Assembly (NCBI RefSeq): GCF_026004075.1
Contig: NZ_BPIK01000001.1
Location: 1,590,041-1,654,040 of the forward strand
DNA: 64,000 nt
Reading direction: 5' to 3'
Source of the DNA: Meiothermus sp.
Lineage (GTDB): Bacteria; Deinococcota; Deinococci; Deinococcales; Thermaceae
Shown here: positions 7,750 through 64,000 of the stretch, in pieces
Layout of the letters: each line of letters starts with the position of its first letter
How positions within the stretch are numbered: position 1 is the first letter of the stretch
Notes under the pieces: model-generated
Told to the model about the DNA's origin: nothing
Databases searched by the model: none
The model's input: only the letters and a program-made list of their open reading frames with translations
Made by a program: the position numbers and the translations under genes

Positions 7750-8640
7750 CTATACGCCAGCAGACAAAGCTGACAAGGTGGCTCTCCGTAGCAGTTGCAG
7801 GTATTGGGCGGGGGTTCTCGAGCGTCCCACCACAATACCCCTCACACCCCGGTAGGGTGCGATCAGGTCTAGCCAGTGGGTTTCACCTTTCCCGGACAGC
7901 ACCAGTAAGCCGGGGGCCAGCCAGGGCACCGCACTCGATGCCAGGGTTGCATCTACCTTCGCTTTGACCTGAGCCGCGGAGACACAGGCATGGGGAATGG
8001 GAGCAAAAGGCTCCTTTGCCCACCCCATCCGATAGGCGAGATAACGGTAGGTCGGCCAGTCGTCAATATCGGAGCACCAAAGCCCATCGCCCCACTCGAG
8101 CAGTTCGATCTGCTTTTGGCGGGTACTCAAGATGGCCCTTGCCCCCTGGTCACCCTTGAGCCGAAGCACTTCCGGGAAAAGCCTCGCGGATAAATATACA
8201 GGGGGGCGTATCTGGCCCTCTACACTGGCCGCTACCGCGAGTATCTGAGGGGTTTTGGTCTCTATAGCTTCTCGCATTTGTTCGAGTCTAGTCGGCTCAA
8301 TTGCTGGCATATCGGCCAGAAGTACCAGTGCACCCGAAGCGCCCGAAAGCATGCGAATACCGGCCTTTAGCGAGGTGCTCTGTCCATACCGATAGTTGTG
8401 GTTAAGCACAGTTTTCACCCTCGAGTCCACACCTGGGGTGGTCTCTACCCAGCGCTCCACCACGTAGCGGGCCACCTTTGCTGCACGCCCCAAAACCACA
8501 ACTATGCGCCCATCTAACGCAAAAGCGGCCCGCTCGAGCACCCGAGTCAGCAGCACATGACCCTCGCCTGCTGGCAGCAAAAACTTTGGCACTCCGAACC
8601 TCGAGGCCCGCCCTGCCGATAGCACAATGGCATCCACCAT
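7750..8640 (-). CDS. MocA/MobA-like nucleotidyltransferase, probable molybdenum cofactor cytidylyltransferase
   Basis: About 296 residues from the ATG at 8638-8640 (MVDAIVLSAGRASRFG); an upstream in-frame ATG at 8668-8670 would add ten residues unlike the family. The N-terminal 190 residues are a nucleotidyltransferase fold: the glycine-rich LSAGRASRFG, the K of GVPKFLL, and VLLADMPAIEPT carrying the metal-binding LADMP. MocA enzymes join CMP to molybdopterin to make the MCD cofactor used by xanthine dehydrogenase-family enzymes including CO dehydrogenase. A C-terminal region of about 100 residues (GLLVLSGKGETHWLDL) is not one I recognise. It is divergent from coxMSL, which supports a role in CODH cofactor supply. 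No ribosome site is evident. Confidence 0.75.
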   Translation of the reverse strand: MVDAIVLSAGRASRFGVPKFLLPAGEGHVLLTRVLERAAFALDGRIVVVLGRAAKVARYVVERWVETTPGVDSRVKTVLNHNYRYGQSTSLKAGIRMLSGASGALVLLADMPAIEPTRLEQMREAIETKTPQILAVAASVEGQIRPPVYLSARLFPEVLRLKGDQGARAILSTRQKQIELLEWGDGLWCSDIDDWPTYRYLAYRMGWAKEPFAPIPHACVSAAQVKAKVDATLASSAVPWLAPGLLVLSGKGETHWLDLIAPYRGVRGIVVGRSRTPAQYLQLLRRATLSALSAGV

Positions 8641-8689
8641 AGCCCAGCAGCTTACAGAAATATGATTCAAACTGTAAGCTTAAACATTC

Positions 8690-8753: not shown

Positions 8754-9632
8754 ATGATACCCGCGGCCTTTGAGTATAAACGTCCGATGTCCCTCGAGGA
8801 GGCCCTGAGCCATCTGGCCCAGTACGGCTCTGATGCCCGTGTGCTGGCCGGAGGGCAGAGCTTGATTCCGGCCATGCGCTATCGCCTGGCCCAGCCTGCA
8901 GTGCTGGTAGATATCAACAAGCTACCCAACCTGGGCTATATGAAAGAAGAAAACGGGATGCTCCGCATCGGAGCGCTGGTGCGCGACACCGATGTAGAGT
9001 TCAGCCGGGATATACAAACCAGATACCACCTAATTAGCGACGTTTCGATGGTAGTAGCCGACCCCATCGTGCGCTACCGGGGTACGGTGGTGGGTTCCCT
9101 CTGCCACAACGACCCCTCCGGCGACTGGGCGGCAGCGGCCATTGCGGCGCGGGCGCAGATGGTCATTCAGAACCAGGGCGGGGCTCGAGTGGAGGCCATT
9201 GACCAGTTTTTGGTGGATAGCTTCGCGACCTCAATTGGCGAGGGCGAGATGGCTGTGGAGGTGCGGCTCCCAGTCCCCGGCGCGCTCACCTCTGGCGCCT
9301 ACGAAAAAATCGAGCGGAAGGTGGGCGACTACGCTACCGCCGCCGCCGCTGTACAGATTGAGCTCAACCCCGACGGTACCATCAAGGAAGCCGGCATCGG
9401 CATCACCGCCGTAGCCCACATGGCCCTGCGGGTTGAAGAGGCCGAGAAAATCTTGCGGGGTCAGAAACCTACGCTCGAGCTAATCCGGGCCGCCGCCGAA
9501 GAGGCCCGCAAAATTGCCGACCCCAATCCAGATGCGCGCGGCTCCGCCGAGTACAAAAAGGACATGGCCCGGGTACTGGTAGGGCGGGGCCTGATTAAAG
9601 CCCTGAAGCGCCTGAACGTGGTGGTGGCCTAA
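8754..9632 (+). CDS. coxM: Aerobic carbon monoxide dehydrogenase, medium FAD subunit
   Basis: 292 residues, the usual size for CoxM/CutM. It carries the FAD-binding motif LAGGQSLIPAMRYRL near residue 30 and a variant of the second flavin motif, GTVVGSLCHNDPSGDW. The subunit passes electrons from the [2Fe-2S] subunit to FAD and on to the respiratory chain. First gene of coxM-coxS-coxL, the gene order of form I CO dehydrogenase operons, with a strong GGAGG ribosome site. Assignment to CODH rather than another hydroxylase rests on the large subunit downstream. Confidence 0.93.
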   Translation: MIPAAFEYKRPMSLEEALSHLAQYGSDARVLAGGQSLIPAMRYRLAQPAVLVDINKLPNLGYMKEENGMLRIGALVRDTDVEFSRDIQTRYHLISDVSMVVADPIVRYRGTVVGSLCHNDPSGDWAAAAIAARAQMVIQNQGGARVEAIDQFLVDSFATSIGEGEMAVEVRLPVPGALTSGAYEKIERKVGDYATAAAAVQIELNPDGTIKEAGIGITAVAHMALRVEEAEKILRGQKPTLELIRAAAEEARKIADPNPDARGSAEYKKDMARVLVGRGLIKALKRLNVVVA

Positions 9633-9661: not shown

Positions 9662-10150
9662 ATGGAAATCACGCTAAAAATCAACGGCTCAGAGAAAAAA
9701 CTTAATGTGGAGCCCCGCACCCTGCTGGTGCATGCCATCCGCGATGCCGGTCTTACCGGAACCCATATCGGCTGTGACAGCTCTTCGTGTGGGGTTTGCA
9801 CGGTGGTGCTCGATGGTAAAACCGCGGTTAAAAGCTGCACCATGTTTGCAGTCCAGGCCGAGGGTCACGAAATTACCACCATCGAGGGCATGGCCCAGGG
9901 TGGCAAGCTGCACCCATTGCAGCAGGCCTTCCACGACCAGCACGGCCTGCAGTGCGGCTACTGTACGCCCGGCATGATTATGGCCGCGCACGTACTCTTG
10001 CAGCACAACCCCAACCCCACCGAGGAAGAGATTCGCTTTGGTCTCTCGGGCAACCTCTGCCGCTGCACCGGCTACCAGAACATCGTAAAAGCCGTTCAGC
10101 AGGCCGCTCAGATGTTGCAGCAACCCGCAGGCGCAGCCGCCGACGACTAG
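9662..10150 (+). CDS. coxS: Aerobic carbon monoxide dehydrogenase, small [2Fe-2S] subunit
   Basis: 162 residues. The N-terminal plant-type [2Fe-2S] cluster is held by CDSSSCGVC plus a later cysteine (VKSC), and the C-terminal four-helix domain holds the second cluster with QCGYCTPGM and NLCRCTGY. All eight expected cysteines are present. It relays electrons from the Mo-Cu site of CoxL to the FAD of CoxM. It begins 29 bp after coxM with an AGGAG site. Confidence 0.95.
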
Positions 10151-10214: not shown

Positions 10215-12614
10215 ATGGCAGTCCAGACCCCCAACCTCGAGCCCAAGGGCATCCAAGGACTCGGCAAGGCCATCAAGCGCAAGGAAGACGCTCGCTTTAT
10301 CGTGGGCAAGGGCAACTACCTCGACGATATCAACCTTCCAGGCATGCTCTACATGGCCCTGGTGCATAGCCCCTACGCCCACGCTAAAATTCTGAACATC
10401 GATACCAGCGAGGCCCTGAAAATTCCCGGTGTCAAGGCCGTCATCACCGCCAAAGACTTAGCCGCCGCAGGGCTTTCCTGGATTCCGACCCTGGCCGGAG
10501 ATAAGCAGATGGTGCTGGCCGACGGTAAAGTGCTGTACCAGCACCAGGAGGTAGCCGCCGTCTACGCCGAGACCCGTCAGGCCGCCGCTGACGGGGCTGC
10601 TGCAGTCCAGGTCGAGTACGAACCCCTACCGGTAGTGGTGGATCCCTACAAAGCCACCGCCCCCGATGCGCCGGTCTTGCGTGAAGACATTAAGGGCAAT
10701 ATGACCGGCGCTCACGGGCCTCGACGTCACGAAAACCACATCTGGACCTGGGACGTGGGCTCCAAGGACGAAACCGAAAAGGCCCTGGCCCAGTCTGAGG
10801 TGCGCATCAAGCAGCACATGATCTACCCCCGCAGCCACCCGGCCCCCCTGGAGCCCTGTGGCTGTATTGGCGACATGAACACAGCCACCGGACGCCTTAC
10901 GGTCTACATGACCACCCAGGCGCCCCACGCCATCCGCACGGTGCTATCGCTGGTAACTAAAATTCCCGAGAACAACATCCGGGTCATCTCGCCCGACATC
11001 GGCGGGGGCTTTGGCAACAAGGTGCCGGTCTACCCCGGCTACGTGTGCGCCATCGTGGGTAGCATCGTGCTGGGCGCCCCGGTCAAGTGGGTCGAGACCC
11101 GTACCGAGAACCTCACCACTACCGGCTTCGCCCGCGATTTCCACATGGACATCGAGATTGGGGCCACCAAAGACGGCAAGGTCACGGCCATGAAGGTCTA
11201 TACCCTGGCCGACCACGGGGCCTTTGACGCCGCCGCCGACCCCAGCAAGTACCCGGCGGGCCTGTTCAGCATCTGCACCGGATCCTACGACTTCCAGAAG
11301 GCCTACGCCCAGGTGGAGGCGGTCTACACCAACAAGGCCCCCGGCGGGGTGGCCTACCGCTGCTCCTTCCGCGTGACCGAGGCCAGCTACCTGATCGAGC
11401 GCAGCATGGACGTGCTGGCCCACGAGCTCAAGATGGACCCTGCCGAGCTGCGCCTCAAGAACTTCATCCAGCCCCACCAGTTCCCCTACCCCTCGGCCCT
11501 GGGCTGGACCTACGACTCCGGCGACTACGAGAAAACCCTGAAAGTGGCGCTCGAGAAAATCGGCTACGCCGAGTTGCGCAAAGAGCAGGCCGAGAAACGG
11601 GCCCGGGGCGAGCTGATGGGCATTGGCATCTCCACCTTTACCGAGATTGTGGGGGCCGGGCCCAGTAAGGACTTCGACATCCTGGGCATCAAGATGTTCG
11701 ACGGGGCCGAGATTCGGGTACACCCCACGGGCTCCGCCATCGTGCGGGCCGGCACGCGCCACCAGGGCCAGGGCCACGAGACCACCTGGGCCCAGATCGT
11801 CTCGGAAGAGCTGGGCCTGGACGTGGACAAAATTATTGTGGAGGAAGGCGATACCGACACCGCCCCCTATGGCCTGGGCACCTACGCCAGCCGCAGCACC
11901 CCCACCGCTGGCGGGGCCATGGCCCTGGCCGCCCGCCGCATCCGCGAGAAGGCCAAAAAGATCGCCGCCCACCTCCTCGAAGTGGGTGAAAACGACGTGG
12001 AGTGGGTGGATAAGAAGTTCCAGGTCAAGGGCGTACCCGGCAAGAGCGTGACCATGAACGAGGTGGCTTTTGCCGCCTACACCAACCTGCCCCCTGGCCT
12101 GGAGCCTGGACTGGAAACCACCTACTACTACGACCCCCCCAACCTGACCTTCCCCCACGGGGCCTACGTCTGCGTGGTGGACATTGACAAAGGCACCGGC
12201 GAGGTCAAGGTGCGCCGCTTCGTGGCCATTGACGACTGCGGCACCATCATCAACCCCATGATTGTGGAAGGACAGGTGCACGGCGGCCTGACCGAAGGCT
12301 TCGCCATGGCCTTCATGCAGGAGATCGCCTTCGATGAACAGGGCAACCACCTGGCCTCCAACTTCACCGATTACCTGCTGCCCACCGCCCTCGAGACCCC
12401 CAAATGGGAGACCGGCCACACCGTTACCCCCAGCCCCCACCACCCCATTGGGGCCAAAGGGGTGGGCGAGTCGCCCACGGTGGGCAGCCCGGCCGCCTTT
12501 GTGAACGCCGTGGTGGACGCCCTGGCTCACCTGGGTGTGCGCCACATCGACATGCCCATCACCCGCGAAAAGGTCTGGAAGATTTTGCGGCAGGCCGGAG
12601 TGGACGCTTTCTAG
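10215..12614 (+). CDS. coxL: Aerobic carbon monoxide dehydrogenase, large molybdenum-copper subunit, form I
   Basis: 799 residues. The active-site loop reads AYRCSFR with the cysteine at residue 383; this is the diagnostic form I CODH motif, and the cysteine corresponds to the copper ligand of the CuSMoO2 site (Cys388 in Oligotropha). The catalytic glutamate is in GAKGVGE (Glu752). MCD-binding stretches such as GGGFGNK and ALEPCG-like [10 protein letters not shown] are present. The reaction is CO + H2O to CO2 with two electrons to the respiratory chain. AAAAAGGAG ribosome site. This motif separates it from the xanthine dehydrogenase large subunit at 38980-41298 in the same window. Confidence 0.96.
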
Positions 12615-12830: not shown

Positions 12831-13280
12831 ATGAAACTCGAGTACAAAGGTCAAGAAAACGTTCAAGCCAACCCCGAAAAAGTTTGGAGCTTTATCCAGG
12901 ATCCCCAAAAAGTAGCCTCCTGCCTGCCCGACCTCAAGAGTGTGGAGATCAAGGACGATAAGCACATGGTTGCCACCGTAGGGGTGGCGGTGGGGCCTGT
13001 GCGGGGTACATTCAAGTTCAACATTGAGCTTGACCCTCGTCCAGACGAAAACAAGGTGATGGTGCGTATCCGCGGCGGTGGACTGGGTAGTGCCGTGGAT
13101 CTTACCGCCAGCGCCGACATCAAAGGCCAGGACAACCAGACCACCCTGCTCGACTGGCAGGGCCAGGCCACGGTGAGCGGCCCCGCCGCTACAGTGGGGG
13201 GGCGGGTGCTGGATGCCCAGGCCAAGCGGCTCATCGAGACGGTGTTTGCCAACATGGGCCAAAAAATGAGCGAAGTATAG
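12831..13280 (+). CDS. coxG: CoxG-family SRPBCC protein, short form
   Basis: 149 residues, the SRPBCC/CoxG fold: MKLEYKGQENVQANPEKVW at the start, VASCLPDLKSVEI, and GGRVLDAQAKRLIETVF near the end. CoxG proteins are needed for CO oxidation, with roles proposed in recruiting CODH to the membrane or ferrying quinone. Longer CoxG proteins carry a C-terminal tail or membrane helix; this one ends right after the fold with MGQKMSEV and has none. It sits between coxL and the maturation genes, in the same direction. A GAGGTGTG site precedes the ATG. Confidence 0.85.
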   Translation: MKLEYKGQENVQANPEKVWSFIQDPQKVASCLPDLKSVEIKDDKHMVATVGVAVGPVRGTFKFNIELDPRPDENKVMVRIRGGGLGSAVDLTASADIKGQDNQTTLLDWQGQATVSGPAATVGGRVLDAQAKRLIETVFANMGQKMSEV

Positions 13281-13439: not shown

Positions 13440-14504
13440 ATGGACATCTACAGCAGAATCGCTGAACTCAGGCAAACCGGCCAGTCGTTTGCGCTGGCTA
13501 CGGTGGTCTCGCGGCAGGCCCCGGTCTCCTCGCATTTGGGCGACAAAGCCATCATCTTTGAAGATGGGTGCTTTGAAGGGTATGTGGGGGGTGCTTGTTC
13601 ACGGGAAATTGTGCGCAAACAGGCCCTCGAGGCCCTGCGCCTGGGCAAGCCCCGGCTGGTCAGGATTACCCCGGAGGCGGCGGCTAAGGTGGTGCTCGAG
13701 CACGCCGACGAGGTGGTCATTCCCATGACCTGCGCCAGCGAGGGCGCGGTGGACGTCTACATCGAGCCCCTGATTGGCAAATCCTGCTTGCTGGTGGTGG
13801 GGGGTTCGCAAATCGCCCTCACCACCGCACAGATAGCTGCCCGCATGAACTACACCGTCACGCTGGCCTGCGATAAGCCCGAGCTGGCCGGGGTGAGCCT
13901 CGAGTCCGAGATTCAGGTGCTGGACTGGCGCGAGCTGGGGGGCTGGCTCGACGCGCAAAACCCCGCCAAAACCCATATCGTAATCGCCTCGCAGGGCCAC
14001 TACGACGAAGACGCCCTGGTGCTCATCGCCCAGCACATGCCCCGCCCGGCCTACCTGGGGCTGGTGGCGAGCCGAAAGCGCGGGGCTGCAGTGCTGGACA
14101 ATCTGGAAATTCTGGGGGTGCCCAGAACCACCTTCCCCCAGCTCAAATACCCCGCCGGCCTCGACCTGGGGGGGCGCGGGCGCGACGAGGTAGCCGTCTC
14201 GATCCTGGCCGAGATCATCTCGCTCAAGCACCAAAAGAACGCCCGGGAAGTAGTCGTAGAGGCCTCCCCAAACCCCTTGCAGGCGCTCGATCAGGTTCAA
14301 GCCATCGCAGCCGATACCCCGGTGGTTTCAGCGCCCACCAGCGTCCCTAGCGGTATGGCTATAGACCCCACCAGCGGCGAGATGGTTGAAATCGCCAAAG
14401 CCGTCAGCGCCGAGTACCAGGGCCAGACCTACTACTTTAGCTGCCCCAATTGCCGCGCCAAGTTCCTGAAGAACCCCGAAAAGTACCTGAAGGGCAGGGC
14501 ATGA
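13440..14504 (+). CDS. XdhC/CoxF-family maturation protein with C-terminal YHS metal-binding domain
   Basis: 354 residues. Residues 1 to about 110 form the XdhC/CoxI N-terminal domain (ALATVVSRQAPVSSHLGDKA, GYVGGACSREIV) and about 115-265 the Rossmann domain (LLVVGGSQIALTTAQIA, ASQGHYDEDAL, GLVASRKRGAAVL). After a proline-rich linker, residues 305-352 are a YHS domain: GQTYYFSCPNCRAKFLKNP, with a CxxC pair, but the usual DPVCGM cysteine is DPTSGE here. XdhC-like proteins load sulfurated molybdenum cofactor. YHS domains bind copper and other soft metals, and CODH alone in its family needs copper, so copper insertion is an attractive inference. No ribosome site is seen; its stop overlaps coxD. 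Confidence 0.85.
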   Translation: MDIYSRIAELRQTGQSFALATVVSRQAPVSSHLGDKAIIFEDGCFEGYVGGACSREIVRKQALEALRLGKPRLVRITPEAAAKVVLEHADEVVIPMTCASEGAVDVYIEPLIGKSCLLVVGGSQIALTTAQIAARMNYTVTLACDKPELAGVSLESEIQVLDWRELGGWLDAQNPAKTHIVIASQGHYDEDALVLIAQHMPRPAYLGLVASRKRGAAVLDNLEILGVPRTTFPQLKYPAGLDLGGRGRDEVAVSILAEIISLKHQKNAREVVVEASPNPLQALDQVQAIAADTPVVSAPTSVPSGMAIDPTSGEMVEIAKAVSAEYQGQTYYFSCPNCRAKFLKNPEKYLKGRA

Positions 14505-15397
14505 ACCCGGCTGAGCAGAATTCCCTTCTACAAAGCGTCGAGGGCATCCAGGCCATCCTGCGCGAGCGCAACTACATCGCCGACCTGCCCATGGCCACCG
14601 CCCTGCGGCTGGTGATGGCTCTGCGCAAGCCGCTGCTGGTCGAGGGCCCCGCCGGGGTGGGCAAAACCCAGCTCGCCAAAACCCTGGCCGAGGTGCTGGA
14701 TACCCGGCTGATTCGGCTGCAGTGCTACGAAGGCCTCGACACTGCCCAGGCCCTGTACGAGTGGAACTACCCCAAGCAGATGCTGCACATCCGCCTGACC
14801 GAGAATTCGGGCGAGAGCGTGGCCCAGCGCGAGGCCGAGATTTTCAGTGAGGCCTACCTGCTGCGCCGCCCGCTGCTCGAGGCCATCTCGCAGGATAAAC
14901 CCCCGGTGCTGCTGATTGACGAGATAGACCGCACCGACGAGGAGTTCGAGGCTTTTTTGCTCGAGCTTTTAGCCGAGTTTCAGGTCACCATCCCCGAGCT
15001 GGGCACCCTCAAGGCCCGGCACCGGCCCTACGTGATCCTGACCTCCAACCGCAGCCGCGAGCTGTCGGACGCCCTCCGGCGGCGCTGTTTGTACCTGTGG
15101 CAAAACTACCCCAGCTTTGAAAAAGAGGTCGAGATCATCCGGGCCAGGCTACCGGGCATCAACGAGCGGCTGGCGCAAAAGATTGCAACGGTGGTGGCCC
15201 ACCTGCGCGAGCTGCCCCTGAACAAGGCCCCCGGCGTGGCCGAGAGCCTGGACTGGGCCGAGGCCCTGGTCTCGCTGCACAAGGAGTCCCTCGATATGAG
15301 CATCCTCGAGCAGACCTGGGGCGTAATCATCAAGGACAAAGACGACCTGGCCCTGGTGGAAGCCCATAAAGCCCGCATCGCCGAGCTGGTCGTCTGA
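14501..15397 (+). CDS. coxD: AAA+ ATPase CoxD, CO dehydrogenase maturation (MoxR type)
   Basis: 298 residues from the ATG at 14501, which overlaps the previous stop as ATGA and so implies coupled translation. Walker A GPAGVGKTQLAK, Walker B VLLIDEIDRTDEEFE, sensor ILTSNRSREL, and arginine-finger region ALRRRCLYLW. In Oligotropha CoxD is an ATP-dependent chaperone needed for sulfuration of the Mo site, with copper insertion following with CoxE and CoxF. The match in gene order (XdhC-like, D, E) supports the same role. Confidence 0.93.
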   Translation: MNPAEQNSLLQSVEGIQAILRERNYIADLPMATALRLVMALRKPLLVEGPAGVGKTQLAKTLAEVLDTRLIRLQCYEGLDTAQALYEWNYPKQMLHIRLTENSGESVAQREAEIFSEAYLLRRPLLEAISQDKPPVLLIDEIDRTDEEFEAFLLELLAEFQVTIPELGTLKARHRPYVILTSNRSRELSDALRRRCLYLWQNYPSFEKEVEIIRARLPGINERLAQKIATVVAHLRELPLNKAPGVAESLDWAEALVSLHKESLDMSILEQTWGVIIKDKDDLALVEAHKARIAELVV

Positions 15398-15429
15398 GCA
15401 GATCAAGCTGGCTGTTGGAGACGCTACCC

Positions 15430-16635
15430 ATGCCGCCCAACGCTTTTCCTCATGGCAACCTGCTCGAGAACCTGGTGGCCTTTGGCGAGCACCTGCGCCG
15501 CACCACCCAGCAGTTCAATGTCGGGCCACAGGAAGTACAGGATGGCTTGCTCGCGCTCGAGGCCGTGCACCTGGGCAACCTGCAGGAGGTTCGACAGGCC
15601 CTCAAGCTGGTCATGTGCAGCAGCCTCGAGCAGGAGCGGGTGTTCGACGACCTGTTCTTTCAGTTTTTCCTCTCGGGGAGGCAGCGTCCGGCAGCCCCCA
15701 ACCACCCCCCCAAAGCCACCCCCGGCGGCCCGGAGGAAGGCCACGAGCAGATACCGGCCCGTCGGTCTTCTTCTCCCGAACACCCGGAGGGCGCAGGTGA
15801 CCTGAGTGGTAAGGGCCGGCCACATCCCCACGAAGATACCCCGGCCGACTGGGCCGCCCCCCTGCTCAAAGCCATGTTCAGCCGTATCGAAGGGGCCGAG
15901 GCCCCGGAAGTGGAGATACCCCAACAAGACCTCGAGGCCATGTTGCAGGCAGCTACCCAGATGGTCAACCAGGTGCGCCTGGGGCGCAGCCGCCGCTGGA
16001 CACTGGCCAGCAAAGGGCCGCGCTTTCACCTGCGGCGCACCCTGCGCAAATCCCTGCACACCGGCGGCGACCCCCTCTACCCCGCCTGGCAGCACCACCC
16101 CAAACGCCAGCCCCGCTTTATATTCGTGCTCGACGGGAGCCGCTCGATGCAGGACTACGCCGACCGGCTGTTGCAGTTTGCCTATGCCCTGCGGATGCGC
16201 TGCAACCGGGTGGAGGTTTTTGTTTTCTCTACCCAGATGGAGCGCATAACCCGGCAGCTCGAAAAAGCCAAAAGCCTTTCCGAGCGGCCCCGGCTCCACC
16301 GGCTGGGCCGGGCCTGGGGCGGCGGCACCAGCATTGGGGAAAACCTGTTGCGGCTCGAGCAGCAGTACGGCGGCCTGATTCGCGGCGACAGCATTGTGAT
16401 TGTAGCCAGCGACGGGCTGGATACCGGGGCAACAGAAATCCTGGAAATGGCCCTGCGCAAAATACGCCAGCGCTGCGCCGCCCTGATCTGGCTCAATCCC
16501 CTGCTCAACCAGAAGGGCTACGACCCTCGAGCCAACTGCATGAACACAGCCCTGCCCTACCTCGACCGGTTCTGCACCGCCGAAGACCCCGAGGCCTTCG
16601 CCCGGCTTACCCAGCGGCTCAGGTTCCGAAAATAG
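15430..16635 (+). CDS. coxE: CoxE, VWA-domain protein of CO dehydrogenase maturation
   Basis: 401 residues from the ATG at 15430, preceded by GGAG at a 10-nt distance; an in-frame TTG at 15415 would overlap that site. The C-terminal half is a von Willebrand A domain with a complete MIDAS: DGSRSMQDY, GGGTSIGENL and SDGLDTGATE. The middle (about residues 80-140) is low-complexity, rich in P, G and E. It works with the CoxD ATPase, as MoxR and VWA proteins commonly pair. Last gene of the cox run; the next gene is convergent and only 3 bp away. Confidence 0.9.
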   Translation: MPPNAFPHGNLLENLVAFGEHLRRTTQQFNVGPQEVQDGLLALEAVHLGNLQEVRQALKLVMCSSLEQERVFDDLFFQFFLSGRQRPAAPNHPPKATPGGPEEGHEQIPARRSSSPEHPEGAGDLSGKGRPHPHEDTPADWAAPLLKAMFSRIEGAEAPEVEIPQQDLEAMLQAATQMVNQVRLGRSRRWTLASKGPRFHLRRTLRKSLHTGGDPLYPAWQHHPKRQPRFIFVLDGSRSMQDYADRLLQFAYALRMRCNRVEVFVFSTQMERITRQLEKAKSLSERPRLHRLGRAWGGGTSIGENLLRLEQQYGGLIRGDSIVIVASDGLDTGATEILEMALRKIRQRCAALIWLNPLLNQKGYDPRANCMNTALPYLDRFCTAEDPEAFARLTQRLRFRK

Positions 16636-20575: not shown

Positions 20576-23131
20576 ATGAAGCAGTGGCTGGGTTTGTTCT
20601 TGGTAGCATTTTTAGTGGCCTGTAACACCGATGGCGTAGGGGTCTCGCCGCCCAACGGCCCCAACCCAAGCCGCACTGGACTCTGGTCCGACCCCAAAAC
20701 CTGGCCTAGCGGACAGCTACCCCGCGCCGGCGAGGTGGTGGTGATTCCCGCTGACCTGGCTGTGGTGCTCGACGTAAGCCCACCCCCCCTCAAGGGCCTG
20801 ACCATCAACGGCGTTTTGCGCTTCGATAACCGAGACCTGGAACTCAGCGCAGACTGGATTATGGTGCACGGGAAGCTCGAGGTCGGCACCCCCAGCCAGC
20901 CTTTCCGCAACCGGGCCATCATCACCCTCACCGGCAACAACCCCGACGAAGACCAGATGGGTATGGGCACCAAGGTGCTGGGGGTGATGGGGGGCATTCT
21001 GGACTTGCACGGCGAGCCCCGCAACGGCTGGACCAAGCTGGCCCAGACCGCCCCCGTCGGGGCCACCCAGATCAGCGTGCTGGACGCCAGGGGCTGGCGC
21101 GTGGGCGACCGCATCGTGCTAGCCTCGACCGACTATAACCCGCGGCAGGCCGAGGTGCGCACCATCCAGGCCATTAGCGGTAATACCCTCACCCTGGACG
21201 CCCCCCTCAAGTACCCCCATTTTGGCGAGATCACCTTTGAGGTAGACCAGCGGGGCGAGGTGGGGCTGCTCTCCCGCAACATCCTGATCCGGGGCGACGA
21301 CTCGTCGAGCAGCACCGGTTTTGGCGGCCACATTATGGCCATGATGGGCAGCACTATGCGGGTCTCCGGCGTGGAGCTATACCGAATGGGACAGCGCAAC
21401 CGGCTGGCCCGCTACCCCATCCACTGGCACCTGATGGGCAGAGCCGCTGGGCAGTACATCAAACAGTCCGCCATCCACGAATCCTTCAACCGCTGCGTGA
21501 CCGTTCACGGTACCAGCGAGGTCGAAGTGTCGGGTAACGTATCCTACAACACCCTGGGCCACTGCTACTTCCTCGAGGACGGCGCCGAAACCAAAAACCT
21601 CATCGAGGGCAACCTGGGCATCCTGACCCGCGAACCCGACCTAGCCAAGGGCGAAGAGGGCGTGATTCCCACCGACAAAACCCCGGCCACCTTCTGGATC
21701 TCCCACCCCGACAACATCGTGCGGAACAACGTGGCCGCCGGTTCCGACCACACCGGCTTCTGGTACGCCCTGCCCGAGAACCCCACCGGCCCCTCGGCCA
21801 CCACCACCATCTGGCCCCGCCGCACCCCATTGGGTGAGTTCTCGGGGAATGTGGCCCACTCTAATTGGGATGGCCTGATGGTCGACCGCGGCCCCAACAA
21901 AGACACCTTAAAAGCAGAGCCCGCCGTTTATAACCCCCGTACCAACCCCAGCAACTTAAGTAACAACAATACCGAGAACCCGCCCGTAGTAGCTGAGTTC
22001 AAAAACTTTACCGCCTATAAAAATCGAGGCAACGCTGCCTGGCTGCGCGGCATCAATCACAAAGTCACCGGGGCCAAGCTGGCCGACAATGCCATTGGCG
22101 TGACCTTCGCCTCGCACGAGAGCACGCTGGAAGACTCGCTGATAGTGGGCGATAGCGCCAACAAGGGCTTCGCCGAAAACTGGGAATTTCGCGGTAGCGA
22201 CGGGCGCAGCCTGCCCAGGCCCTGGGCGGCCAGTGGGGGCCCTATCGCGGACAACTTTCCTATTCGCGGTTTTGAGTTCTACGACGGTAAAGTTGGCTTC
22301 CGCAATGTACATTTCATCAACTTCCAACCATTGCAAATCCAGAATGCCCAGGGCAGCCATACCGCCATCCGTGAAGCTGGGGCCCTGAGCTATCTACGCT
22401 TCACTGCTTTTGCCATTGACAGCCGCAACTTTGCTGAAGGTGCGCGTTTCACCAACGCCAAACCCGTATACCTGCCCCCCCGCCCGGAACCCACCCCCGA
22501 AGAGATCGCCAAAGATGACAACGCCGATGGCTACCGGGGCAGCGTTTTCGTGGACGCCGATGGTACGGTAGGGGGTAGCCGGGGCCATGCCATTGTGCTC
22601 AATACCCCCTTTCTGCTCGATACCAACTGCCAAATTAGGGCTGACTGGAACGCTGGTGTGTGCAACTACAGCTATGGGCGGCTGTACATTTATAACGAAA
22701 GCGGCGGCAACATCGCTCCGGTCTCGCTGACCCGCAACGATGGTAGCAACCCGGTATTTCAGATGTGGGGCGCGCCACGGGATGGTGATAACAGTAACTT
22801 TGGGGCTACTGTCATCAAGGGCCGTAACTACACCTTGGGCGTGAATGGCGTCATCCCCAATAAGCTCAAGCTTCGCTTTGACGACAGTGTGTCAGGAGAA
22901 TTTATCTACGTGGCTATCCCATACAGCGGGGAGCCCTTCATCTACCGCGACTACTGGATAGACAACCGCAATAAACTGGTTCGGGCAGTATCCCGGGCCG
23001 AATTTGACGGCAGCACCGGAGACCGTTATTGGAGCGAAGGCGGAATGATTTTTGTAAAACTAGTGGTACGAGACCAACCAGGGCGTGACTGGGCGGTGCT
23101 GGATATCTGCCGCAGCGATTTATGTAGATAA
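20576..23131 (+). CDS. G8-domain lipoprotein with beta-helix, CEMIP/TMEM2-like
   Basis: 851 residues. A lipoprotein signal (MKQWLGLFLVAFLVAC) places it outside the cytoplasm, anchored by lipid. Residues about 35-150 look like a G8 domain: GLWSDPKTWPSGQLPRAGE at the start, several glycines, then VHGKLEVGTPSQPF. It is followed by a long right-handed beta-helix region with repeats such as IHESFNRCVTVHGTSEVEV and NTLGHCYFLEDGAETKNLI. This order matches animal CEMIP and TMEM2, where the domain set is linked to hyaluronan depolymerisation. Bacterial relatives lack a known substrate, so a role in binding or cutting an extracellular polysaccharide is inference. TAGGAG ribosome site. Monocistronic. 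Confidence 0.8.
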   Translation: MKQWLGLFLVAFLVACNTDGVGVSPPNGPNPSRTGLWSDPKTWPSGQLPRAGEVVVIPADLAVVLDVSPPPLKGLTINGVLRFDNRDLELSADWIMVHGKLEVGTPSQPFRNRAIITLTGNNPDEDQMGMGTKVLGVMGGILDLHGEPRNGWTKLAQTAPVGATQISVLDARGWRVGDRIVLASTDYNPRQAEVRTIQAISGNTLTLDAPLKYPHFGEITFEVDQRGEVGLLSRNILIRGDDSSSSTGFGGHIMAMMGSTMRVSGVELYRMGQRNRLARYPIHWHLMGRAAGQYIKQSAIHESFNRCVTVHGTSEVEVSGNVSYNTLGHCYFLEDGAETKNLIEGNLGILTREPDLAKGEEGVIPTDKTPATFWISHPDNIVRNNVAAGSDHTGFWYALPENPTGPSATTTIWPRRTPLGEFSGNVAHSNWDGLMVDRGPNKDTLKAEPAVYNPRTNPSNLSNNNTENPPVVAEFKNFTAYKNRGNAAWLRGINHKVTGAKLADNAIGVTFASHESTLEDSLIVGDSANKGFAENWEFRGSDGRSLPRPWAASGGPIADNFPIRGFEFYDGKVGFRNVHFINFQPLQIQNAQGSHTAIREAGALSYLRFTAFAIDSRNFAEGARFTNAKPVYLPPRPEPTPEEIAKDDNADGYRGSVFVDADGTVGGSRGHAIVLNTPFLLDTNCQIRADWNAGVCNYSYGRLYIYNESGGNIAPVSLTRNDGSNPVFQMWGAPRDGDNSNFGATVIKGRNYTLGVNGVIPNKLKLRFDDSVSGEFIYVAIPYSGEPFIYRDYWIDNRNKLVRAVSRAEFDGSTGDRYWSEGGMIFVKLVVRDQPGRDWAVLDICRSDLCR

Positions 23132-37785: not shown

Positions 37786-38625
37786 TTACTCGGCCACCTT
37801 GGTGCGGCCCGGCTGGGCCTGGGGGCTATCCTCGAAAATAAAGGGCAGCAACTGGGCCGCCGTGGCGATGGCGATGGCCTCTGGCGCTTTGCTCCTGACC
37901 CCCGGCAGCCCGATGGGGGTGGTGACCCGCTGCAAGTCCTGGTCGGAAAAACCCTGGGCCTTTAGCTTTTGGCGGAAGCGGGCCCACTTGCCCGCGCTCC
38001 CGATAAGGCCGATATAGCCCAGGTCGGCGCGGCGCAGGGCCATCTCGAGCACGAACAGATCCTCGGCGTGGTCGTGGGTCATGACCACCAGGTGCGCACC
38101 CGCGGGCAGGTCGCTTACCACCCCGTCCAGGATGGGCGCGTGGAAGGCTTTAATCTCGGCCTGGCCGCGGTGCATGGGTGCTAAGCGCGCCTCGTCCAGC
38201 ATGGGGGCCCTCGAGTCCACCAACCAGAGGGCCACCGGGCAGATCGAGAGCACCCGGGCCAGGGCCAGCCCCACATGCCCCACCCCAAAGAGGGCCACGG
38301 TGGGCCGGGCCGGCGTCACCCGCTCGAGCAGGATGGTCACCTCGCCCCCACAGCACTGCACGCCGTACTCGGCCGGGGCCTGTTCGGTGAGCCGCAGGGT
38401 GTGCATCTGAGGGCTGGCAGCGCCCGCGGCCAGCATCTGCCGCGCCAGCCCAATGGCGGTGGCCTCGAGGTTCCCGCCCCCAATAGTGCCGTAGACCGCC
38501 TCCGCCGTCACCAGCATCTTGGCCCCGGCCTCGCGGGGCGCATGGCCACGCACCACCACCAGGGTGACCAGCACCAGGGGTCGCTTGCGCTCGGTTAGTT
38601 GGGCCAGGTGATCGAACCAGCGCAT
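37786..38625 (-). CDS. xdhC: Xanthine dehydrogenase accessory protein XdhC
   Basis: 279 residues. N-terminal XdhC domain with HAPREAGAKMLV and GTIGGGNLEA, the CCGGEV motif (YGVQCCGGEVTILLE) and a C-terminal Rossmann-like domain with LFGVGHVGLALARVL and YIGLIGSAGKW. XdhC binds molybdenum cofactor, aids its sulfuration and inserts it into xanthine dehydrogenase. It lies between the dehydrogenase subunits and the purine transporter. It differs from the cox-linked XdhC relative at 13440-14504, which has an extra YHS domain. Confidence 0.93.
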   Translation of the reverse strand: MRWFDHLAQLTERKRPLVLVTLVVVRGHAPREAGAKMLVTAEAVYGTIGGGNLEATAIGLARQMLAAGAASPQMHTLRLTEQAPAEYGVQCCGGEVTILLERVTPARPTVALFGVGHVGLALARVLSICPVALWLVDSRAPMLDEARLAPMHRGQAEIKAFHAPILDGVVSDLPAGAHLVVMTHDHAEDLFVLEMALRRADLGYIGLIGSAGKWARFRQKLKAQGFSDQDLQRVTTPIGLPGVRSKAPEAIAIATAAQLLPFIFEDSPQAQPGRTKVAE

Positions 38626-53045: not shown

Positions 53046-53522
53046 GTGTTCCTCTTCGTCCTGCGGCGCTTGATGGGTGGATTGCCCACCCTGTTGCTGG
53101 TCACAGTGCTGGTTTTTACGCTGACCCGGGTGTTACCGGGTGACCCGGCCCGGCTGCTGCTGGGCGAAGAGGCCACCCCCGAGCTGGTCGCGCAAATCCG
53201 AGAGGAACTGGGGCTCAACCGGCCCATCCTGGTGCAGTATGCCGACTGGCTGTGGGGCCTGGTGAGGGGTGATCTGGGGCGCTCGATTCGCGGCAACGAG
53301 CTGGTAGCCCCCATTATCTGGCAAAAACTACCCACCACCCTGGAGCTCAGCTTGTTCTCGCTTTTGGTGGCCATCGCGATTGGCATTCCGGCGGGGGTGC
53401 TGGCGGCGTTGCGAAGAAACACCGCAATTGATGCAAGCGTGACCGTGATGGCCCTTTCGGGCATCTCGATCCCTAACTTTTTTCTGGGCATCTTGCTGAT
53501 ATATGCCTTTAGAGCCTGCTAA
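53046..53522 (+). pseudogene. Peptide ABC transporter permease (DppB/GsiC type), 5' part, split by an IS
   Basis: GTG start at 53046. About 155 residues of a normal permease (MFLFVLRRLMGGLPTLLLV, VLPGDPARLLLGEEATPEL, GDLGRSIRGN) run to 53511, where the IS begins; the frame then reads three IS codons (R-A-C) and stops at 53522. Joined to the 3' part at 54379-54857 without the IS, it gives 315 codons in frame. The insertion should inactivate the transporter and may be polar on the second permease and ggt. Confidence 0.93.
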
Positions 53523-54376
53523 CTAGCTGTTCGTAAAAGCTCCACAGTTTTCGCTGTCATCAGAATCGAAAAAGCCAACCAGTGCCAACCTCGCAAGGTC
53601 TCAGCCAGCCGCTCATAGTCTCGCGCCAGCCTGCGAAACCGGGATGTCCAGGCAAACGAACGTTCCACCACCCAACGCTTCGGCAGCAGCACGAATCCTC
53701 GTTTGGCCCCTTCCACCTTGACCACACACAGGGCGATGCCTTCCGCCTCTGCCGCTTGTGCCGCTTCCTCCCCAGTGTAACCCTGATCCACAAAGGCCAC
53801 TTCCACCTGCTCCCCCGTCACTTCCTGCACCTGTTGACTGAGGGCTCCCACCTGGGCCCGTTCCTGTTCACTGGCCGCCGTTACTACCAGGGCCAGCAGA
53901 TGCCCCAGGGTATCTACCGCCAGGTGAACTTTGCTTCCCTTGCGTCGTTTGTACCCATCGTATCCGGCCCGCTCCCCACTTTGCGGGGTGGACTGTAGGG
54001 TGCGAGCATCGTAGATGGCAGCGCTGGGATGGGCGGCTTTGCCCTGGAGCATTCGCAGGGTCATGCGCAGGTCGTGTACCAGGTCTTCGAAGACCCCCCG
54101 GTTCATCCAGCGGTAGGCTTGCGCCTGAACGATATGGGGGGGTGGGAAGTCGTGGGGCAGGTAGTCCCACTGAGCACCGGTTCGAACCATCCAGCGCAGG
54201 GCGTTGAACACTTCGCGCAGGTCGTACTTGCGCTGGGGTGCTTCCAGCGGGGCGAGGGTCAAATAGGGCAGCACCAGAGCCCATTCCTCATCACGGACGT
54301 CCGATGGGTAAGCACGGCGGTTCATGCTCTAAACATAACTGCAGTGCCTGATTTGGGTAAGGTGGTTTGTAGATTC
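53512..54376 (-). mobile_element. IS5-family insertion sequence, intact copy, inserted in the permease gene
   Basis: 865 bp. Ends are imperfect inverted repeats: GAGCCTGCTAACTAGC at the left against GAATCTACAAACCACC at the right end read inward (10 of 16 match). Flanked by a TA duplication (53510-53511 and 54377-54378). A second copy lies at 63142-64000 in the opposite orientation. One transposase gene. Confidence 0.92.
53519..54325 (-). CDS. IS5-family transposase
   Basis: 268 residues. N-terminal DUF4096-type domain ([38 protein letters not shown]) and DDE domain: first Asp in [13 protein letters not shown], second in [13 protein letters not shown], and Glu in [20 protein letters not shown]. 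Complete frame, so probably active. ATG at 54323-54325. No CTCGAG in the element, unlike the chromosome around it. Confidence 0.95.
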
Positions 54377-63141: not shown

Positions 63142-64000
63142 GAATCTACAAACCACCTTACCCAAATCAGGCACTGCAGTTATGTTTAGAGCATGAACCG
63201 CCGTGCTTACCCATCGGACGTCCGTGATGAGGAATGGGCTCTGGTGCTGCCCTATTTGACCCTCGCCCCGCTGAAGCACCCCAGCGCAAGTACGACCTGC
63301 GCGAAGTGTTCAACGCCCTGCGCTGGATGGTTCGAACCGGTGCTCAGTGGGACTACCTGCCCCACGACTTCCCACCCCCCCATATCGTTCAGGCGCAAGC
63401 CTACCGCTGGATGAACCGGGGGGTCTTCGAAGACCTGTACACGACCTGCGCATGACCCTGCGAATGCTCCAGGGCAAAGCCGCCCATCCCAGCGCTGCCA
63501 TCTACGATGCTCGCACCCTACAGTCCACCCCGCAAAGTGGGGAGCGGGCCGGATACGATGGGTACAAACGACGCAAGGGAAGCAAAGTTCACCTGGCGGT
63601 AGATACCCTGGGGCATCTGCTGGCCCTGGTAGTAACGGCGGCCAGTGAACAGGAACGGGCCCAGGTGGGAGCCCTCAGTCAACAGGTGCAGGAAGTGACG
63701 GGGGAGCAGGTGGAAGTGGCCTTTGTGGATCAGGGTTACACTGGGGAGGAAGCGGCACAAGCGGCAGAGGCGGAAGGCATCGCCCTGTGTGTGGTCAAGG
63801 TGGAAGGGGCCAAACGAGGATTCGTGCTGCTGCCGAAGCGTTGGGTGGTGGAACGTTCGTTTGCCTGGACATCCCGGTTTCGCAGGCTGGCGCGAGACTA
63901 TGAGCGGCTGGCTGAGACCTTGCGAGGTTGGCACTGGTTGGCTTTTTCGATTCTGATGACAGCGAAAACTGTGGAGCTTTTACGAACAGCTAGTTAGCAG
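63142..64000 (+). mobile_element. IS5-family insertion sequence, second copy, reaching the window edge
   Basis: Matches the element at 53512-54376 in opposite orientation, starting at GAATCTAC after a TA (63140-63141). 859 bp are visible; given two 1-bp deletions, only the last 4 bp of the element lie outside the window. Both copies show near-identical sequence by eye, so the spread is recent. Confidence 0.93.
63193..63997 (+). pseudogene. IS5-family transposase, frameshifted copy
   Basis: Compared with the intact gene at 53519-54325 it has lost one G at about 63276 (GCTGGAAG to GCTGAAG) and one G at about 63430 (CCTGGTAC to CCTGTAC). The frame shifts twice, so the N-terminal part and the DDE domain (resuming as [12 protein letters not shown]) are in different frames. 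All catalytic residues survive in the last segment. Sequencing error cannot be ruled out. Confidence 0.9.

Follow-up and report, generated by a model that had tools for sequence, protein, structure and literature searches.

A C-terminal YHS domain of the chaperone CoxF accompanies form I coxL in four phyla and is a candidate copper-handling domain

In four phyla, the fusion of a YHS domain to the C-terminus of the XdhC-family chaperone CoxF tracks form I coxL almost without exception. Aerobic carbon monoxide dehydrogenase (CODH) is a main sink of atmospheric CO and possesses a [CuSMoO2] active site. The link of the YHS domain to this copper enzyme is well supported. With regard to function, the sequences suggest a candidate role: the domain would be a CODH-specific copper-handling module of CoxF, which holds Cu(I) and passes it to CODH (probability about 0.6). 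As far as the open literature shows, CoxF-YHS is a real, widespread and apparently previously unremarked variant of a known chaperone; a search of open-access publications yielded no description of a YHS domain in connection with XdhC or CODH.

The protein was analysed in a window of 64,000 nucleotides, the whole stretch of Meiothermus sp. DNA under study (contig NZ_BPIK01000001.1, positions 1,590,041 to 1,654,040). The coxF gene (13440–14504, plus strand, as are all its parts named below) was identified from the list of open reading frames and by Pfam matches and codes for 354 residues. XdhC_CoxI (PF02625; residues 11–76, 13470–13667, 56.6 bits) and the Rossmann domain XdhC_C (PF13478; residues 117–259, 13788–14216, 78.6 bits) are both above the curated Pfam cut-offs, which places the protein in the XdhC/CoxI family. 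They are followed by a fast-evolving linker of low model confidence (residues 267–305, 14238–14354) and by the YHS domain (PF04945; residues 306–352, 14355–14495), whose profile matches residues 308–352 with 42.5 bits at a cut-off of 30.3. In the AlphaFold model, the XdhC body and the YHS domain are both confident and are connected by a disordered linker; the body resembles the mycobacterial XdhC structures 2we7 and 2we8. The isolated YHS domain (AF2, pLDDT 88.6) gave weak Foldseek matches (E-value 0.1 or more) to YHS and eL24 structures, the nearest folds at these weak E-values being YHS-like regions of the toluene/methane (diiron) monooxygenases and ribosomal eL24.

Cys98 (13731–13733, in PMTCASEG) is invariant across the aligned CoxF proteins. 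It occupies the place of the family-wide XdhC cysteine and of the MCPSHGTM motif of CoxF from Oligotropha (PMC2997495, PMC4240915), and would correspond to Cys82 of R. capsulatus XdhC (PMC2997495). The CoxF of Oligotropha (Afipia) carboxidovorans shares with the window protein the orthologous XdhC core, the location in a cox cluster and this cysteine, but it terminates after the core and has no YHS domain. Likewise, the XdhC (TIGR02964) and XdhC_rel_AOR (NF045664) proteins contain XdhC_CoxI, XdhC_C and the conserved cysteine but lack YHS. The window CoxF stays below both equivalog cut-offs (19.4 versus 161.6 bits for TIGR02964 and 93 versus 350 bits for NF045664).

The surrounding genes are arranged in the order coxM-coxS-coxL-coxG-coxF-coxD-coxE, with coxF located between coxG and coxD. 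On the plus strand, Pfam matches identify coxM (FAD subunit, 8754–9632), coxS ([2Fe-2S] subunit, 9662–10150), coxG (12831–13280) and coxE (VWA protein, 15415–16635). The coxL gene (10215–12614, plus strand) scores 1306.7 bits on TIGR02416, whose cut-off is 991, and is therefore of form I; the motif AYRCSFR is encoded at 11352–11372. As CoxF is encoded beside a coxL above this cut-off that contains AYxCSFR, its neighbourhood is that of a form I CoxF. The start codon of coxD (AAA+ ATPase, 14501–15397, plus strand) overlaps the coxF stop codon in an ATGA (14501–14504), so that translation of the two genes is probably coupled. A MobA/MocA-like nucleotidyltransferase gene (7750–8670, minus strand) is divergent from coxM; about 100 C-terminal residues of its product have no Pfam match. 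The window also encodes the XdhC of a xanthine dehydrogenase cluster (37786–38625, minus strand), which reaches 253 bits on TIGR02964 (cut-off 161.6) and is thus a true xanthine dehydrogenase XdhC. The sequence-only reading had contrasted a cox-linked XdhC relative carrying a C-terminal YHS domain with this XdhC lacking one, and the Pfam matches bear out the contrast.

The same reading had proposed to compare YHS fusion with the presence of form I coxL. For this comparison, 845 genomes from four phyla were surveyed (101 from Deinococcota and relatives, 246 from Actinomycetota, 251 from Chloroflexota and 247 from Acidobacteriota). Form I coxL is present in about 125 of these, and the fusion in about 120 of the 122 with a readable CoxF. 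Fusions were not equally frequent where form I coxL is missing: no intact fusion was found in such a genome among all 845, a count that may miss weakly similar fusions, since the profile was built on fusion proteins and the top candidates per genome were scored. The only copy without form I coxL is broken, a frameshifted CoxF-YHS in genome G630. In Deinococcota and relatives, 21 of 21 form I genomes (G057 and G092 being counted from fragments) and none of the 80 others have the fusion. Form I coxL is present in 43 Actinomycetota genomes, above the cut-off in 41 and in fragments in G228 and G208, and each of the 43 also has CoxF; 41 of these CoxF copies are complete, and YHS is present in 40 of them. 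Among the Chloroflexota, 55 genomes are above the form I cut-off, and in 54 the CoxF match extends into YHS, most of these YHS parts being judged by the profile match and not read individually. The exception, G544, has its coxL at a contig end, and G438 contains a probable form I fragment. Five Acidobacteriota genomes are of form I (one as fragments), four of them with YHS. The apparent exceptions G208, G228, G776 and probably G438 are carriers of form I fragments. When Fisher tests were applied to the first three phylum tables, with the exceptions still unresolved, p values fell below 1e-20; these are not true probabilities because the genomes are non-independent through shared descent.

XdhC paralogs were never found with a YHS domain, including the XdhC of the form II CODH in the window's genome. 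The same holds for the nearest paralogs of CoxF, some of which lie beside other molybdenum hydroxylases.

A scan of a genome collection yielded 80 loci, which represent seven phyla. In 62 of them the form I motif AYRCSFR is encoded within 8 kb, and in seven further loci coxL is present by similarity. Of the remaining eleven, nine are close to the end of a contig; L037 and L044 contain coxD, or coxD plus coxE, and the available stretch lacks form I coxL. That the fusion is unique to the window can therefore be ruled out. Plasmid records with the fusion come from Thermomicrobium, Burkholderiales and the haloarchaeon Natronorubrum, those without it from Afipia (Oligotropha), Bradyrhizobium, Rhizobium, Shinella and Rhodobacterales; the contrast between Alpha- and Betaproteobacteria is thus one between plasmid sequences. 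Outside the Alphaproteobacteria, the fusion is the usual architecture of CoxF. Many clusters of Acidimicrobiia, Dormibacterota and Chloroflexota combine coxMSL and CoxF-YHS with no coxD or coxE within about 8 kb (L062, L063, L067, L070, L085, L089, L092, L096 and L108 lack them), which runs counter to the statement that coxDEF are always grouped (PMC3471820).

In a tree of XdhC cores, computed by a quick method without bootstrap, all CoxF proteins of form I clusters, whether or not they carry YHS, fall into a single clade that excludes the other XdhC proteins (SH-aLRT 100). The window CoxF groups with the Oligotropha CoxF in this clade. The tree requires six state changes of YHS: a single early fusion with five later losses (in Alphaproteobacteria and in four other places) has the same length as two gains and four losses, so that the tree is compatible with either gain or loss for the Alphaproteobacteria. 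Other form I CoxF proteins that have lost YHS are those of L056, L094, L114, L159/L174 and L210. Three YHS-less CoxF proteins end in Cys/His tails, namely L056:1542-2393 (DDGDHHCCHT), L210:4795-5712 (SSSSCCRDSD) and L094:7986-8858 (LHACSHGGA); 49 paralog tails contain zero cysteines in 810 residues. These very few cases hint that a Cys/His tail may be a replacement metal site in two or three YHS-less lineages.

Purifying selection acts more strongly on the YHS domain than on the chaperone core. Among 13 Meiothermus genomes, sequence identity is 91% for YHS, 85% for the core and 40% for the linker, and the corresponding dN values are 0.044, 0.095 and 0.711, while YHS and core differ little in synonymous divergence. 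The architecture of XdhC_CoxI, XdhC_C and YHS is present in 47 of 47 aligned relatives; since YHS is moreover the best-conserved part of the protein in Meiothermus, the fusion is not due to chance. The conservation within Meiothermus likewise indicates that the domain is in use and that its cysteine losses, described below, do not reflect decay.

The canonical metal ligands of YHS domains are an Asp or Cys, the DPVC cysteine and the cysteines at positions F+1 and F+5. In the window protein, Asp309 and Cys338 (F+5, 14451–14453) are kept, but the ligand set is incomplete. Ser312 (14373–14375) occupies the position of the first canonical cysteine (DPVC to DPTS) and Ser334 (14439–14441) that of the second at F+1, while Cys335 (F+2, 14442–14444) has been added as the first cysteine of a CPNC pair (YYFC.. 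to YYFSCPNC). One of three canonical cysteines is therefore left. The replacement of DPVCGM by DPTSGE, already seen in the sequence-only reading, is real, and the second change from Cys to Ser at F+1 had been missed. Neither a sequencing error nor decay can account for it: 12 further Meiothermus genomes all carry the replacement, and conservation of the domain is strong.

Among 148 aligned fused YHS domains, 115 contain both the DPVC and the F+1 cysteine. The remaining 33 contain neither and have a cysteine at F+2 (FxCxxC); intermediates do not occur, and Cys338 is invariant in 148 of 148. The swapped domains occupy three positions in the tree (Meiothermus ruber group, Deinococcales and Thermoleophilia), and at each of these three separate events, a number that does not permit a significance test, both cysteines change together. 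The swapped site is not a common YHS type: it is absent from about 20 non-CoxF YHS proteins of related genomes; the last canonical cysteine is missing from one of these, and the others have the full set. Note that the CoxF-YHS proteins of Trueperaceae (L036, L037) have an extra cysteine at the Asp position (CPTC/CPVC...FCCPNC), giving five in total.

The loss of two of the three canonical cysteines from the window domain speaks against a copper role. It would suit a metal-free docking or structural module that places CoxF on CoxL, CoxD or CoxE, as would the nearest folds, found in YHS-like regions of the hydroxylases of toluene and methane monooxygenase; the YHS domain of toluene-4-hydroxylase binds no metal in its solved structure (PMC4626032). 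However, a docking module predicts neither the invariance of Cys338 and the presence of FxCxxC in every domain without the canonical pair, nor the confinement to a copper enzyme, and we consider it unlikely.

For the copper-handling reading, the experimental background comes from Oligotropha. Mutants in coxE and coxF produce a CODH with normal molybdenum, near-normal sulfane sulfur and almost no copper; for coxF, the copper content is 0.043 compared to 1.47 mol/mol (PMC4240915). CoxF was proposed to be the copper donor of CODH on the basis of its MCPSHGTM motif (PMC4240915). This motif cannot explain the specificity for copper, because its cysteine is the position conserved across the XdhC family (PMC2997495). 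The YHS domain of the copper P-type ATPases and of the M. phlei adenylyl cyclase belongs to the same family as that of CoxF and is similarly tethered C-terminally; in the cyclase it confers a response to copper and to no other metal tried (PMC4626032). Outside the XdhC proteins, the YHS domains with the best matches belong mostly to heavy-metal P-type ATPases. Most CoxF relatives share the canonical cysteines with these proteins, whereas in the window domain two of them are Ser and one cysteine is added to give FxCxxC. A CxxC pair on a small domain used for copper hand-over would also be reminiscent of the Cu(I) chaperones Atx1 and CopZ, which are of a different fold and family; a Pfam search of the window CoxF gave no match to the HMA domain (MxCxxC), which sets it apart from them.

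A CxxC pair is also a common redox motif, and XdhC proteins act together with a cysteine desulfurase in the sulfuration of the molybdenum cofactor (PMC2997495). The cysteines of YHS could thus serve sulfur or redox chemistry, for example as a persulfide carrier or in protection of Mo-SH, instead of copper handling. This is improbable, given that YHS is absent from the XdhC proteins that serve other sulfurated molybdenum enzymes and that it is copper, and not sulfur, that the Oligotropha coxF mutant is missing.

The Alphaproteobacterial CoxF proteins, including the experimentally studied one of Oligotropha, argue against a copper role, as they are devoid of YHS. No other lineage has been studied biochemically, and Oligotropha is the one organism in which a coxF mutant is known to yield copper-free CODH. 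No YHS domain was found on the Oligotropha plasmid pHCG3 either, so copper can enter CODH without one, and the domain can at most be one route among several. The copper function proposed in the sequence-only reading is partly supported: the association with the copper enzyme holds in four phyla, but the domain is not universally required. That the Oligotropha CoxF works without YHS is what one expects of a purely regulatory domain. As in the M. phlei adenylyl cyclase, which copper switches on via YHS (PMC4626032), the domain might sense copper and license the action of CoxF on CoxL, the copper itself coming from CoxE or a cytosolic pool. A sensor is, however, somewhat less likely still than a docking module: loss of coxF leaves the enzyme without copper (PMC4240915), and a sensor would not need to track the enzyme strictly across phyla and should have a stable ligand set. 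Co-occurrence within an operon does not in itself identify the metal.

If the domain handles copper, the XdhC part would be the chaperone working on the molybdenum site of CoxL, and the YHS domain on its flexible linker would provide a small cysteine-based metal site specific to the copper enzyme. It would hold Cu(I) beside the chaperone body that contacts the molybdenum site, and Cu(I) would then move to the sulfurated molybdenum centre, perhaps via Cys98. The site would consist of the canonical DPVC...FC...C cysteines plus Asp in most lineages and would have been reset to the two-cysteine FxCxxC form in the lineage of the window and in two others. A dedicated cis copper-donor domain on the molybdenum-site chaperone, which switched as a block from three cysteines to FxCxxC at least three times and which a Cys/His tail may replace after its loss, is a tentative model to which we give somewhat less than even odds.

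The published model of copper insertion is built on the Oligotropha CoxF and its copper motif. The YHS domain, which follows the copper enzyme across phyla, is a short piece that can be deleted and has two testable cysteines, and it is a good candidate for the copper hand-over part in most form I CODH bacteria. Furthermore, the fusion suggests what to add for expression of form I CODH in foreign hosts.

Elsewhere in the window, a protein of 851 residues that combines a G8 and a CEMIP beta-helix domain (20576–23131, plus strand) is a bacterial relative of human CEMIP/KIAA1199. Two IS4/5-type DDE transposases (53519–54325, minus strand; 63347–63997, plus strand) are identical in protein sequence over their shared part.
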